Assembly: GCA_947568835.1 (NCBI GenBank)
Contig: OX387603.1
Location: forward strand, 22,840,651-22,904,650
Direction of reading: 5' to 3'
Origin: Protonemura montana
Taxonomy: Eukaryota > Arthropoda > Insecta > Plecoptera > Nemouridae
DNA length: 64,000 bases
In this document: positions 1,045 to 19,000 of the stretch, one piece after another
How positions within the stretch are numbered: the first letter of the stretch is position 1
Layout of the letters: each line of letters opens with the position of its first letter
Made by a program: the position numbers and the translations under genes
Notes under the pieces: generated by a model
Seen by the model: only the letters and a program-made list of their open reading frames with translations
What the model was told of the DNA's origin: nothing
Databases searched by the model: none

Positions 1045-4770
<3,726 letters not shown>

Positions 4771-5316
4771 TTTATTCAGCCAATTCTCATTTTTATGTCA
4801 GATTAAGCAACATACCAGTTTTATTTGTAATTAGCTTTAATCGCATGTTGCAGCGATCACATTTTTTGTGTGTTTAATTTTTAAGAACACAACCACAATA
4901 TTACATTAAAACACAATGAACATTTCAATAAATACAAGTCTTGTTTGTTTCGTTGTGATGTACGTGGTTTCGATATGCATGACCGTCGATGGCTTTGACC
5001 TTGAACCCACGAAAAAATGCACCAAAGTCAACAGGACACGGCGTAGCTCACCTGAAAATAATGAATAAATCCAAGTAACAGCTATTGTTTCAAATGACAC
5101 AAGAAATCAGAGAGCCCGGGATGCATTTCTCAGCTGCTGAAAGGGGTTTAATTCTCGGACACCTAAAACATATTTCAAATATAGCATAAAAGAATCAATT
5201 CCAAAGCAAGCAACCACCACCACTCTGTTTTTCCGCCACCATCCCAGATTTGAAGGAAATCGCCGTCCTTACAACGTTTCCTGCGCTTTGGTGCTCGTCT
5301 TATTTCCAAGGACGCG
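4771..5316. other. Intergenic region between convergent ADA2 and calcitonin genes
   Basis: About 545 bp that must hold both 3' UTRs. Candidate poly(A) hexamers occur on both strands. Nothing else was recognised. Confidence 0.5.
4927..4932 (+). terminator. Poly(A) signal AATAAA for ADA2
   Basis: An AATAAA hexamer about 157 bp after the ADA2 stop. It is the first good match in the 3' flank. No cleavage site was determined. Confidence 0.4.
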
Positions 5317-6834
5317 TTACATTCTCAGCAAACGGCAAGAGGCGTCATGCCCTCGAAGGCAGAAATGCTCCAATATTTGTTCAATGGATAAGGATCTCTT
5401 CCCAGGACTACCTCCTGATCCGAAGTAATCACCATCACCTCCTGATCCTGGATATTGACCATTGATGCAGCTGTCATCGAGTAGATTTACACAGCGCCGC
5501 TCCAGTTTTCCCTTGTTGTCTATTTTGTTCTGGTAAATCGTCACTAGAGGAGCGGACGACCTCTTTCCAGGACTGCCTCCTGATCCGAAGTAATCCCCGT
5601 CGCCTCCTGATCCTGGATACTGGCCGTTGATGCAGCTGTCGTCGAGCAAGTTAGCGCACCTCTTGTCTTTGCCGTGAGTTTCCATTTGGTTCTTGAAGAT
5701 TTCAATCAAGGGAGGTATCGAGCGTTTCCCAGGACTGCCACCTGATCCGAAGTAATCCCCGTCGCCTCCTGATCCTGGATACTGGCCGTTGATACAGCTG
5801 TCGTCGAGCAAGTTAGCGCATCTCTTATTCTTTCCTTGGTTTTCCATGAGTCTCTTGAAAATGTCTAGTAAGGAAGGTATCGAGCGTTTTCCAGGACTGC
5901 CTCCTGATCCGAAATAATCCCCGTCGCCTCCTGATCCTAGATACTGGCCGTTGATGCAGCTGTCGTCGAGCAAGTTAGCGCAGCGTTTCACCCTTTTGCT
6001 ATAAAGAAAAAAGCACCAAAAGAACAATATTAAAATTATGTTCGAAACAGTTTCTGTTTACCTTTAATTTAAAGGTAATCGCGGACTCCTGCGCCTTCGA
6101 CCTGGCATTTCAGGATCTCTCCAGAACTTGTCGTGCCTGGCTGCGTTGACGACGTCGCTGTAATCGCAACTGTGCGCCATGCCGCCGTTCAAGTAACAAA
6201 TCCTTTTTCTGTGGACATCACGTGGATTTTAGTGAGATACTCACATTGCATCATGAAACAAAAGCACACATGCCATTTATCCATCTATCCGACTTACGCT
6301 GGTTTTGGTTTCGGTTTGTAATTTAAAAAAGCTTCTCCCAGAATCAGTTTGAGCAATTTTTCTGTCCGCGGAGTTTCTTGCAAAAACATTGGCTCGGAAC
6401 TGTGACGTGAATAAGCGGTAGAATTGGTTATTGATTGATTACGTTTTTATAGACCTTTTCGTTTCATGATACTTAGCAAACAGTCGTGAAAAAAGCCATG
6501 TGTTAACAGAGAGAATATGATTATTTAGAAAATATGGTCATCGAGAAATTCTGTAAATTTATGCGTGATTCAAGCATTCGACAACCAAGTTTGAGAGTGA
6601 TACAAAATAATATCGATCTCTCTTTAAATCTAACTAAATTTTTATAAAAAAGGATGAAATATTGAAGTTGATTTAGTGCTCGAGGCACAACAACAATTCT
6701 ACACTTGAGTTTTTCAAGTTCACTCACCCTCCCTCGAGCTCTTGCAAACTGTCTTCCTCCAGCAATTCTACAGAACGAACAAGTGCTGGTGTCAAAACAA
6801 CAGCAAGCCAAACTAAGACTGTCAACTTCCCCAT
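5317..6834 (-). CDS. Calcitonin-type neuropeptide precursor, isoform B (four calcitonin-B copies)
   Basis: A secreted prohormone of 296 residues from exons 6834-6728, 6399-6298 and 5998-5317 (minus strand). Exon 1 encodes a textbook signal peptide (MGKLTVLVWLAVVLTPALV). Exon 2 is a spacer peptide. The last exon holds four tandem copies of a 30-residue peptide that begins CANLLDDSC, continues through GDGDYFGSGGSP and ends in GKR. Each copy therefore has an N-terminal disulfide ring (Cys1-Cys9) and, after dibasic cleavage, a C-terminal proline-amide. Both are hallmarks of the calcitonin family. Copies 2 and 3 are identical; copy 1 has Leu for Pro at position 15 and copy 4 has Val for Ala at position 2. 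They are separated by KR or RR sites and amphipathic linkers such as PLLDIFKRLMENQGKNKR-like stretches. Naming it insect calcitonin B rests on the ring, Pro-amide and gene structure as I remember the family. Expected ligand of a class B GPCR. Confidence 0.8.
6064..6834 (-). CDS. Calcitonin-type neuropeptide precursor, isoform A (alternative exon)
   Basis: The same first two exons (6834-6728 and 6399-6298) can splice in the same phase to an acceptor at 6209-6210. Exon A then starts at 6208 and stops at 6066-6064, for a 117-residue precursor. Exon A begins KR-ICYLNGGMAHSC, continues with DYSDVVNAARHDKFW and ends EMPGRRRR. This gives one 33-residue peptide with a Cys2-Cys12 ring and a Pro-amide C-terminus, which fits arthropod calcitonin A. 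A good donor (AAG|GTAAAC, intron from 6061) lies directly after the stop, so exon A could be a 147-nt cassette. Inclusion would give calcitonin A; skipping would give calcitonin B. Use as a separate terminal exon is the alternative. Transcripts are needed to tell which. Confidence 0.75.
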
Positions 6835-6983: not shown

Positions 6984-6990
6984 TTTTATA
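6984..6990 (-). promoter_or_regulatory. TATA box of the calcitonin gene
   Basis: On the minus strand CTATAAAACG occurs about 150 bp upstream of the ATG at 6834. A start site near 6958 would give a 5' UTR of about 125 nt. Restricted neuropeptide genes often have TATA promoters. Inferred from sequence only. Confidence 0.5.
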
Positions 6991-13039: not shown

Positions 13040-16000
13040 ATGAGTGAATGCAGTGCGCTTGATTTGCAATCGATAGAAACGTACAAATCGAATAGCTCTA
13101 TATTTGCGGGCATAAAGTTTTTTGCTTGTGGAACAGTAAATGATCAGGTACTACTATTTTGCGGCTCTCCAACCTAGCCCTGATGAACAATTTCAGACCT
13201 AGTGATAATGCCCATCTAATCTTTCTATGTACATTTAGCTTTGCAATTATAATATTCTACGGAGGGACATATCGAACGACTCGAAAGCGATGATCGAGAC
13301 CCAAAATTACAGCAAGGTTTCCTCAGTACATTGATTAATTGTTATGATATTTTTCCAGGTTATCAAACTTCTCTGCGATTCCGGTGCCGAACGCCATGAG
13401 TATTTGACAGATTTTGTCACCCATTGCATTACAGGAACTAATGTGGACAAACAAGATTTATTGGAGGATAAAGATCTCTACAGTTTCCCATTTGTCAAAC
13501 AGCAATGGGTCGTGCACTCTCTGAAATGCAATCAACTCTTGCCGTATCCTTTACTTACAACGCTAGGCAGACGTGGAACTTTTGGTAATATTATTCACAA
13601 GTCTCATTTTTGTTTCTTTTACTCACTTTTATGATTTAGCATTTGTGATCAACACTGATGTAGGATTCAACCTGTAATTCAACTACATTGCAAATGTGTC
13701 TCTCTGCAAACATTTCCTTAACAACATCAACAGTACTGCAGGTTATTCTTCAGAAGATGGTATTTTTGATAACTTACTCGTCTGTTTATCGGGTGTTGGC
13801 AAAGAGGATGCAAAAAAGATATGGGCAATGATTATATGGCATGGAGGAAAGTGCCAACTACATCTTGAAGCAAAATGCACCCATCTTATCTCCACCTTAC
13901 CAAAAGGCGTAAGTTGCTACCCCTTTTGTTTTCTCTTATTAGTTAGGTACCTGAGTGTCAGACAGAAACATTGCATACAATCCTGTTTTGCTTTGTTCAG
14001 GCAAAATACGAGCGAGCCATGCAGCTCGAGAACTCGATTCGTATTGTGACTCCTGATTGGGTGGCTGATAGTGTCCGTGCTCGTAAGGTAAATGAAGAAG
14101 CTCTTTACCATCCAAGACTTCTCATCCTGCCACAGCCTGTGGTGAAACAAACATCTTTAATATCACAGTCAACAGTTGCGGCATGTAAGTACAGTTATCA
14201 ATTACCTATGTAGTAAATTATGTCAAACAGTGCTAGGTGCATCTCTAAGCCCGTTTCACAGCTTATTTCAGAGAAAATCACTAGTTATTGGGAGAATCAC
14301 AATAAAAGCAAGATTGCAAAACTAATCCAGCTTAATTTGAACGTTCTTGAATAAGGGTCATTATATCTATTGATAATTATTCCAGTGGAAAGCTCGTTGG
14401 GCGGCTTATCGACTGCGCAGATTCTCGGGTTCGACGACGGGGATGACATGACTCCCACTCCTATTGCTCCTATCGCCGTGGCCCAGCCAATCGTTCAACC
14501 AACTGCGGACCATTCGTCAAAACTGGAGCAGCTACGGCAACGAATGCCTTGGAACAAACCTGCTGCAACTTCCCAGCCCAGTCAGATCCTGCAGGTGAAG
14601 CAGGAACCTGGCCTTCATGTTCAGCAACAGCTCCAGCAACAAGTACAGCAGCAACAGGTTGGGCTGCAACAGCAAGGTGGTCTGCAACAACAGGTTCAAC
14701 AAGTCAGCGTGCAGCAACAGGTTCAGAAAGCTGGAATTCAGCAGCAGGTGCTTCAGCAACAACAAATTCAAAAGCAACAGCAGCAGCAACAGATTCATCA
14801 GCAACTGCAACAACAAAACCAACAGCAATCATTACAAGTACAACAACAAGTTCAGCAACAGCAACAACAGGTATGTCAATCGCAACGCTAATGATATGAT
14901 CTGTTCAAAGAGTGTCTGGCTATCAGAGTTTATGATAGCTAGAAGAGTAGCAAGAGCAAGCAAGAGCAAAAAAGAGTAGCCCATAAGACAGAGTCTTAGT
15001 ACCTGCTTCAAATGAAAACACACCATATGCACCAGTTTGCCAAAGCTAGTAGTTCTTCGATAGAACCACTAATTTTGTTTGTCTCCTTCCCCAGTCGCTT
15101 CCGCAACAACTCCAAGAACAGCTCCAACAGTTCCAGTCGATCCAGCAACTGCAACAGCAACAGCGTCTGAGCAACCTACAGAACGCAAATCTGGGCCAGT
15201 CTCAGTTGTCCGGGCTTCAGAGTCCGGGTGGAATGCCATCGGTGCCTTTGCAGTCGGGCATTTCGGGCCCTGCTCAGGGCCAGATTGGCTCGGCAATGGG
15301 TCAAGGGCCAATCGGTCCAGCCATGCAGGGCCAGGGTCCGCTCGGCCCAGAGCAAGGGCCACGAGCAATGCAGATTCGGCCGCAGCAGATGCAGGCACAG
15401 CTGGCCGTGCAACAGGCGCAAGTACAGGCGCAGGGGCAGGCGCAGAACTGGCGGCAGAATACGGTGAGAATGGTGTTCGTGAAAAGCAGTCCGATTCTTG
15501 TGATTTACATTGACCATCATATTTAAGATATTTAAGTTTTTATCAGCAACTTTCAACTACACATTTTACTGGCCCTTCGGTGGTTGAAAATATCCTCTTG
15601 TTTCAGCCGATTCAGCAACAGCAGCAACAGTTACAGTTGCAGAAGCAACAACTGCAGCTCCAACAACTGCGTGATGCACAGCCGCAGCAGCAAATCCCGC
15701 AGCCACAGCAACAACAGGTTGGCCAGCCTCAGTCAGTCCCACAGCAATCTCCACAGACGCAACAATACTCACTGACCCTGCAGAGAGAGGGCGGTCAGAT
15801 GACCCTGCAGCAACAAAAGTTCCAGCTACAGCAGCGTCAATTGCAGATACAACAACAACTGCAACAGTTGCAACAGCTGCAGGCACAGCATCAGCAAAAC
15901 AATCAGCCTCCAAACCCGCAGATACCGTTGCAAATCATACAGCTACAACAACAACTGCAACAAAACCAACAGCAATATTTACAAAATCAGCAGCATCAGC

Positions 16001-19000
16001 AACAGTTGCATCAACAACAACAACAGCAGCAACAGCAAAATCCTCAACTTCAACAGCAATTATTACAACAGCAGCAGCAACAACAGCAACAGCAACAACA
16101 ACAGCAAACTAGTCCACAACAGCAGCAGCAGCAGCAGCAAACTACTCAACAACTTCAGTTGCAACAAAATCCTCTGCAACAACAGCAACAGCTGCAACAA
16201 CAGCAAATATCTTGGACTCAGCAACCAGCAATGCCTGGTCAGGTGAGTTCAGATTAAAGGAATACATCAAAATGGGTAGGTATATCACTGGGCTCCCAGC
16301 TGAAGATTTTGGGTGACAAGAAGCCTTGCCACTGCAATAATCGTTTTATCAAATTGTTTTGTTTAAATGGTGTAAACAAAAACATGGATACACAACTGCC
16401 CAAAGTAATAATAATATCCTTTGCAGGCACCGACACGCCAACTGATCCATCTGGATCCTCTAACTCACGCAAAGCTGCAGCAAATGGACCCACAACAGCG
16501 GACATTGTTCATCCAGAAGATTCATAAACAAAAGCAGCTCATCATGCAGCGTCAGCTTGCGGTAATTGAAATTTAATCATATTAACTTTATTTGATTTAT
16601 TTGGTACTGACCACAGCTACCTTGTGGGGCATTTAAACTTGTGCCTGCCATTCTCATTTGAGCGTTTCCCGCTCTTGATGCCTGTTTAAGATACTGCCGT
16701 TTTAGGGGTGCAGCAGATCTTAAATTGACATGTTTTGCTGACATAAATCACATGTGCATAGATTTCACAAGTTCACAAGAAGGTCACAAAATTATAAATA
16801 TTCACATGCTTTATGCTAACTCTACTGTTGCTATCTAGGAGTTCTATAGGGGATATCCTCATATCTTAGAATTCCTAAACCAAACTGAAGTAAATTAGAA
16901 GTTGCTGCCAACATCGTTCTTCAACAGAACGGCGCTTTCTCCCCTTCTGACCACGTTCTTTGATTTGCTCTTTGCAGCAGCAACAGCAGCAGCAGCATCA
17001 GCAGAGGGCGCAGCTGCAGCAAGGTGTGGGCGCTGCCCCAGCCCCGAGCCAAGGCATGCCAATGCAGCAGATAGTCCAGCAGCAGCAGCAGGTGGTCATC
17101 CGCGGCCAGGTGCAGGTGCCGCCTGGACTAACTCCGCAGCAGCAAATTGCGTGGCTCACGCAGCAGCGGCAGAGACAGCAGCAGCAGCAACAGCAGCGGC
17201 AGTTTACGCAAGCACAGGGAATCCGGCAGCAGGCAAGTTTTTGGCAATGGCCTGCTTAGGGCTGTCATATCAACATTCAACATATCGAGTTGTCAGCGAC
17301 CTATTTGGAGATGTCTAATTCTGTGTTAATGACCACTCTGTTATTAGGTTGTGAGGTCTAGGCTGACAGTTAAATGGTGTGAGAAAAGAATAATAATATT
17401 TGTGGGTCTGCTTGCTGTTTAAAAGCCAGCAAATTTATGGCATCTTGTCCTAACATTTGAATTATTGTATATTACTTTTATTTTAATCTAGGGAGAGATT
17501 GTCGAGTTAATTAAAATCAACTATTAAATTGATATTTTGGATTGTTAAATTAGTTTTGGGTGTGATAATTGGCTTCTAGGTGCTCGTACAGCAGCAGCAA
17601 GGTGGAATCCGACAGCAAATGGTCCAGCAGACTCAACAGATGGTACAAGGGCAGCAAATAGTTCAAGGCCAGCAAATAGTTCAAGGCCAACAAATGATTC
17701 AGGGCCAACAAATGATCCAGGGCCAACAAATAGTTCAGAACCAGCAAATGCTACAGAATCAACAATTACTGCAAAATCAACAGCTGGTACAAAATCAGCA
17801 ACTGGTGCAAGGACAGCAGATTGTTAGTGGCCAACCACTGGACAACCAAATCTGCCAACAATTGTTGTCTGGGCAACAGATAATGACACCCGGACAACAA
17901 CAGATGCCTCCAGGACAACAGCAAATAACACCCGGACAGCAACAAATGGTCCCCGGCCAACAGCAAATGGTTCCGGGGCAACAGCAAATTTTGGCTGGGC
18001 AACAGCAAATGGTCGCGGGGCAGCAGCAAATGGTCCCCGGCCAACAGCAAATGGTCGCGGGGCAACAGCAAATGGTGGCTGGGCAACAGCAAATGGTGGC
18101 GGGGCAACAGCAAATGGTCGCGGGTCAACAGCAAATGGCACCCGGCCAGCAAATGAGCGACGGCCAGTCTCAGACTTCGCAGACCCAACAACACTTGGCA
18201 ATGCAGCGACAGATCCAGCACCTGCAACAGCTGCGTATTCAGCAGCAGCAGCGAGAAGCACAGAAACAACTGCTGCAGCAGCAACAACAACAGCAGCAGC
18301 AGCAAAATCTACCCGCAGGGGCACAGAGGATTCCGCAAGGCCAGTCACAGAAGCCGATGCAGTATGCTAACCAGGTACACACAGCGTTTACATTAGAGAT
18401 GCTGATTGCTAGCTTATCATTTTCACTTTAGTATTGGTATACAACGAGCTAAATCCATGGTAAGAGATTGTTAACTTTTATAAACATTTCAGAAAAGGTA
18501 AGGCAAATTTAGATTTTAAAATTGATTGTAATGCTCTGGTATCTTTATAATGCAAAAAGAGTGCCAAAAGGCTGGATATTTAGATGAAATCTTATTTAAA
18601 TTGCAAACGCTCGCAATGCGCGGGGTATTTTATTATTATAATTACTATAATCGTCTCAAAAATTGATGCCCAAACAGGGACTCAAACACCAACAACAATT
18701 CGAACCCGCGCATTGCAAGCGTTTGCAATTTAAATAAGATTTCATCTACATACAACGCATCCAACGTCAAATTGGAGTTACTCGAGATTGACAGGTTGTG
18801 ACGTGGTATACCATCACTAGAATCAGAGTGACTGTAGGTATTAACAGCATCTTGGTTCTCCTCTTTGGAGATCTGTCATTCTCATCAAATACACTAAAAT
18901 CGTCTCAAAAAGTTAGTGTCCAAGTAGCTCAATGGGTTGGAGCAACACTCGCGATAGGTGGAGATCAGGGTTCGAGTCTCCGTTTGGGTATCAATTTTTG

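Follow-up and report, generated by a model that had tools for sequence, protein, structure and literature searches.

A calcitonin gene of the stonefly Protonemura montana with shared upstream exons and two putative alternative hormone exons

Structure of the locus

The stretch of Protonemura montana DNA analysed in this work, hereafter called the window, comprises 64,000 nucleotides of contig OX387603.1 (assembly GCA_947568835.1), and on its minus strand it carries a calcitonin gene with the ATG at position 6834. Positions refer to the window unless another contig is given, and a slash marks the splice border. All coding sequence of the four exons (1, 2, A and B) fits within 1.5 kb, and the introns of the gene are 328, 89 and 63 nt long.

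A TATAAAA box at 6984..6990 (minus strand) is a candidate for the shared promoter, from which transcription would start approximately 30 bp downstream. Exon 1 (6728..6834, minus strand, 107 nt) provides the ATG and a signal-peptide-like start, MGKLTVLVWLAVVLTPALVRS, recognized as such by eye, and ends in phase 2 at the donor GG/GTGAGT. Exon 2 (6298..6399, minus strand, 102 nt) runs from phase 2 to phase 2, encodes a common spacer peptide ending with ...KPKPKP-A and is followed by the donor GC/GTAAGT. Because phase 2 closes exon 1 as well as exon 2, and because exon 2 measures 102 nt, the latter could itself be skipped without loss of the frame.

According to the reading frames, the exon 1-exon 2 join can continue in frame to exon A or to exon B, resulting in precursors of 117 aa (A) and 296 aa (B) with the signal peptide and the upstream exons in common. 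The coordinates proposed in the initial annotation turned out to be right to the base: exon 2 leaves phase 2 (GC), and the AGs at 6210-6209 and 6000-5999 both give Ala-Lys-Arg. When both strands of the window are counted, only 158 of 7229 AG dinucleotides (2.2%) would restore Ala and a dibasic pair in that phase, yet both acceptors do, so the frame match exceeds what is expected by chance. The frames entering exons A and B contain no Met upstream of the hormone, and therefore only exon 1 can supply a signal peptide.

The last point bears also on the idea that A and B are separate transcripts, each with a promoter of its own, to which two more TATA-like strings in intron 1 (at 6646 and 6451) and a hydrophobic stretch, read from the 63-nt intron by the frame into exon B, could be assigned. 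That stretch is devoid of Met, and a transcript beginning beyond exon 1 would need the exon 2 ATG (MFLQETPRTEKLLKLILGEAFL...), where no typical signal peptide can be seen by eye; we consider such an arrangement highly unlikely. Searches of the whole assembly (258,480,905 bases in 34 contigs; 11 exceed 12 Mb among 25 of the 34) revealed no second locus for exon B at E values up to 0.01 and none for exon A at E values up to 10. In our opinion the locus is very probably an insect member of the A/B calcitonin genes known from arthropods, in which one promoter and shared exons would feed two alternative hormone exons.

Hormone exons and their peptides

Exon A (6062..6208, minus strand, 147 nt) encodes KR-ICYLNGGMAHSCDYSDVVNAARHDKFWRDPEMP-G-RRRR, that is a dibasic site, the 33 residues of calcitonin A and Gly-Arg-Arg-Arg-Arg, followed by the TAA stop (6066-6064) and, two bases later, by the donor AAAG/GTAAAC. 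The mature peptide is predicted to occupy 6103..6201 (minus strand), with a Cys ring and a Pro-amide that would be formed from the next Gly. Its alignment with calcitonin A of Locusta (PMC4237046) extends over the full length except the first Ile and scores 59, a value reached by none of 2000 plain shuffles and none of 5000 constrained ones, in which the Cys residues and the final Pro-Gly were held. It is therefore calcitonin A-like by comparison with this single reference sequence, CYLNGGMAHSCDY...MPG corresponding to CYIGGRMGGCDY...SPG in the locust. The acceptor of exon A is weak on the scale used for all splice scores here (a generic consensus table, not trained on this genome): its 20-base tract is 50% pyrimidine, and an equal or better score is reached by 19.4% of the AGs in the window.

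Such a weak acceptor would suit a decaying relic or a rarely used exon, with calcitonin B alone being made, as in Holometabola, which are stated to produce B only and from which calcitonin A is reported absent (PMC4237046, PMC6585902). The cockroach Rhyparobia adds to this, as only B was found in its transcriptome, with neither A nor splice alternatives (PMC12604039). Either state is nevertheless very unlikely for exon A of the gene described here, which has kept its open frame, both Cys residues, its stop, the two splice sites and a Pro-Gly-tetrabasic end, and whose peptide matches the locust calcitonin A end to end. What the Rhyparobia case does indicate is that A need not be used everywhere.

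With exon A read as a genuine hormone exon, its counterpart is exon B, the coding part of which (5317..5998, minus strand, stop at 5319-5317) comprises four calcitonin B copies, dibasic spacers and a Cys-containing tail. The product begins with KRVKR and continues with four copies of CANLLDDSCINGQYPGSGGDGDYFGSGGSP-G-KR differing by small changes, which can be summarized as C[AV]NLLDDSCINGQY[LP]GSGGDGDYFGSGGSP-G; judged by motif, all four have the Cys ring and Pro-Gly-Lys-Arg. All on the minus strand, copy 1 is located at 5893..5982, copy 2 at 5731..5820, copy 3 at 5569..5658 and copy 4 at 5404..5493, the first alone having Leu instead of Pro at position 15 and the last being the most diverged at synonymous sites. 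The earlier description of one 33-residue Cys-ring Pro-amide peptide from exon A and four 30-residue peptides from exon B is borne out by the translated frames, and that of a donor just past the A stop, a 147-nt exon A and a 63-nt intron before B by the sequence.

The B copies form the top tandem repeat of the window, with a period of 162 nt and a score of 712 (among nine repeats scoring at least 100). Copies 1-3 are mutually nearer, with 1-4 synonymous differences, while copy 4 deviates from them in 14-15 of some 21 synonymous and 1-2 of some 72 nonsynonymous sites (pS 0.66-0.70, pN 0.014-0.028). Differences at 66-70% of the synonymous sites versus 1-3% of the nonsynonymous ones speak for strong purifying selection on the B peptide. 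The acceptor of exon B is strong: its 20-base tract is 80% pyrimidine and only 0.76% of the AGs in the window score as high.

No alignment above shuffles was obtained between the exon A and exon B peptides, and calcitonin B aligns with Locusta calcitonin A at chance level only (2088 of 5000 shuffles). The three exon frames and both full precursors gave no match to the calcitonin/CGRP/IAPP Pfam family at E values up to 10, so that membership in this family is not indicated. The single Pfam match above a cut-off, to HEPN (24 bits, cut-off 22), covers a spacer and part of one repeat and was rejected as spurious and compositional.

Choice between the two exons

The best explanation of this layout includes several parts that go beyond the letters themselves, namely the promoter, the splicing choice and its default, processing, secretion and receptor action, and these are proposed here as a model. 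From one promoter, exons 1 and 2 with the signal peptide and the spacer would lead to A or to B. When exon A is included, translation would end at its own stop and one calcitonin A per precursor would be made; when it is skipped, exon 2 would be joined to exon B and four calcitonin B copies per precursor would result. Cleavage at dibasic sites, disulfide closure and conversion of Gly to the amide would then give the mature hormones. As the acceptor of exon A is weak and that of exon B strong, B is the probable default, and A may be included where a splicing activator is present in certain cells.

The initial annotation had joined exon A to exon B by a 6062-to-5998 junction. This part of the claim turned out to be an assumption: the termite A mRNA omits the B exon, and in the present sequence there is a strong acceptor at 5051; hence this junction may be one of two options for the donor of exon A. 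The length of exon A is divisible by three. The message containing both A and B would keep one frame across the A stop, and nothing in the sequence suggests read-through of this stop. If A were spliced onward, no decay caused by a premature stop would be expected, because the A stop lies 2 nt upstream of its donor.

The acceptor in question is the best-scoring one of the region 7000-4600 and adjoins the best-scoring donor of the same region, ATTTTCAG/GTGAGC (CAG/GTGAGC; 5046..5059, minus strand, with 5051 as the first base after the acceptor). Of 410 AG/GT sites on both strands of the window it is the only one strong both ways by the generic consensus. Placed approximately 265 bases beyond the calcitonin B stop, it may mark either the beginning of a noncoding 3' exon or a site of recursive splicing. 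Exon A might accordingly be spliced straight to a 3' noncoding exon near 5051 with B omitted, A and B being mutually exclusive, which we regard as a serious possibility, though somewhat short of an even chance. Such wiring is known from Zootermopsis, where the B exon is missing from mRNA1 and the A exons from mRNA2, while a noncoding sixth exon is present in both (PMC4237046), and the location of the top acceptor downstream of the B stop agrees with it. Several features argue in the opposite direction. From the B stop to 5051 no donor does better than the mediocre one at 5273 (score 1.07, equalled or exceeded by 6.2% of GTs), the acceptor of B is both near exon A and strong, and the shrimp gene has four exons (PMC11673531).

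Concerning 3' ends, AATAAA signals are located downstream of exon B (4771..4825, minus strand, starting at 4825 and 4776), whereas between exons A and B there is none; a single ATTAAA occurs within exon A, at 6068. In vertebrates the exon for calcitonin is terminal and carries a poly(A) site of its own, and vertebrate calcitonin and CGRP are Cys-ring amidated peptides. Due to the lack of AATAAA between A and B, an early poly(A) site as in vertebrate calcitonin is unlikely in the stonefly gene.

Relation to known calcitonin genes

Vertebrate CALCA resembles the present locus in that one gene gives two hormones through exon choice (PMC6283891). This parallel, drawn in the initial annotation, is to be taken as an analogy only; a direct precedent is found in the calcitonin A/B gene of arthropods (PMC4237046). 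The claim of one gene and two hormones is the best reading, as the sequence allows it and the literature reports one A versus several B copies, but neither its vertebrate comparison nor its A-to-B junction is supported as given.

According to Veenstra (2014), the gene of the termite Zootermopsis makes one A or three B peptides via alternative splicing; very similar genes are described from dragonfly, cockroach and mayfly, and both peptides from phasmids (PMC4237046). As in the locus described here, Zootermopsis has a common signal-peptide part, one A or several B, and a Cys ring with Pro-amide in both peptides (PMC4237046). It differs in having six exons, of which 2-5 are coding, with the A mRNA lacking exon 5 and the B mRNA lacking exons 3 and 4; its first and last exons are noncoding and its B copies number three, compared with one A exon and four B copies in the present gene (PMC4237046). 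In decapods A and B transcripts are both present (PMC4888303, PMC11673531). The gene of the shrimp Litopenaeus is alike in its four exons, the A and B precursors arising by alternative splicing of exon 3 or exon 4 (PMC11673531), and unlike in its B peptides, for which two Cys bridges are predicted (PMC4888303, PMC11673531). Veenstra (2014) describes midgut expression for calcitonin B and regards A as plausibly neural (PMC4237046). No stonefly report on the calcitonin A/B gene was found among the matches listed in a title search of the open-access literature, and calcitonin is not mentioned in the mayfly genome paper (PMC7250882).

Insect DH31 shares the Pro-amide end and is calcitonin-like according to the literature (PMC4237046). 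In contrast to the A and B peptides it lacks the Cys ring, and it is encoded at a separate locus of the same contig (C2:26620668). As DH31 gave no alignment above shuffles with either the A or the B peptide, nothing places these among the DH31 peptides.

Receptors and other observations in the genome

Receptor genes were searched exon by exon, a non-exhaustive procedure that may have missed one, and the reading covered five loci and 12 short pieces, with the type of three genes assigned from the best PDB hits. For the gene at C1:4.63 Mb these were CGRP and calcitonin receptors (E values 1e-32 to 5e-32, the next family reaching 6e-26), and we presume that it resembles the DH31 receptor. The second gene of calcitonin type, at C14:5.33-5.36 Mb, gave the calcitonin receptor at 1e-14, the CGRP receptor at 4e-11 and the secretin receptor at 7e-11. 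For the third, at C2:8.63 Mb, the margin is small, with the parathyroid hormone receptor at 87.8 bits versus the calcitonin receptor at 82.0. For species with both A and B, the scheme of Veenstra predicts one receptor for A and one for B besides the DH31 receptor (PMC4237046). The presence of two clear calcitonin-type receptors, one of them DH31-receptor-like, speaks mildly against this two-receptor picture.

The 7tm_2 family has at least 127 matches in the genome, with 150 of 167 candidates scored. Many of them are long unbroken frames, often of about 600-700 codons, crowded on contigs C14 and C15. This crowding represents a large receptor expansion, perhaps methuselah-like, a family name which we assume.

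In the vicinity of the calcitonin gene, plus-strand frames at 2034-4049 are convergent with it and resemble, as we presume, an adenosine deaminase-type growth factor. Further along the plus strand, 14355-18428 is taken up by frames very rich in Gln, which contain tandem repeats of 18 to 84 bases and perhaps belong to a poly-Q transcription co-activator. Right after them, at 18917-18992 of the plus strand, lies a tRNA-Ser (CGA); tRNA and Rfam scans of the window detected nothing beyond this one tRNA.

Several further features were noted in the assembly. A search for the hemocyanin family gave 19 matches in two clusters, which on the basis of motifs we take to be two hexamerins and five prophenoloxidases; no hemocyanin was recognized. 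TTAGG telomere-type repeats gave 7938 forward and 7633 reverse exact 25-mer hits genome-wide, and among the matches listed those on C1 are internal, away from its ends. On the chromosome-size contig C4 there are two COX1 matches 15,886 bases apart (C4:5760925-5762262 and C4:5776811-5777755), the first scoring the same as that of the mitochondrial contig C34 (15,885 bases) and the second partial; the pair is probably a nuclear insertion longer than a single mitochondrial genome, or else an artefact of the assembly. The mitochondrial contig itself has the ancestral tRNA order (ARAGORN), as expected of mayflies, apart from those known to be rearranged (PMC8231340), and also of many other insects. 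Published genome notes give 11 chromosomes for two mayflies and 12, 6, 13 and 14 for four stoneflies. Among neuropeptides, an ACP-like peptide, QVTFSKDWNG-GKR, is encoded in a minus frame at C3:12184887-12188027. AKH reads QLNFSPSW, a form listed in a review for several Hemiptera; as the sole AKH known from Plecoptera differs by one residue according to the same review (PMC10926376), this form is mildly unexpected for a stonefly.

Conclusions

The locus is a fresh example of an arrangement previously described in termites, other insects and shrimp, and does not represent a system of a new kind. Should calcitonin A prove to be present in a holometabolous insect, it would be the first there, and the hormone switch would have survived into Holometabola. 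Together with the four-exon plan of the shrimp gene (PMC11673531), the present layout would agree with an ancient origin of this organization within Pancrustacea. As a clean and compact candidate for the arthropod hormone switch, the gene offers a convenient test case for exon choice setting both the identity of the hormone and the number of copies released.
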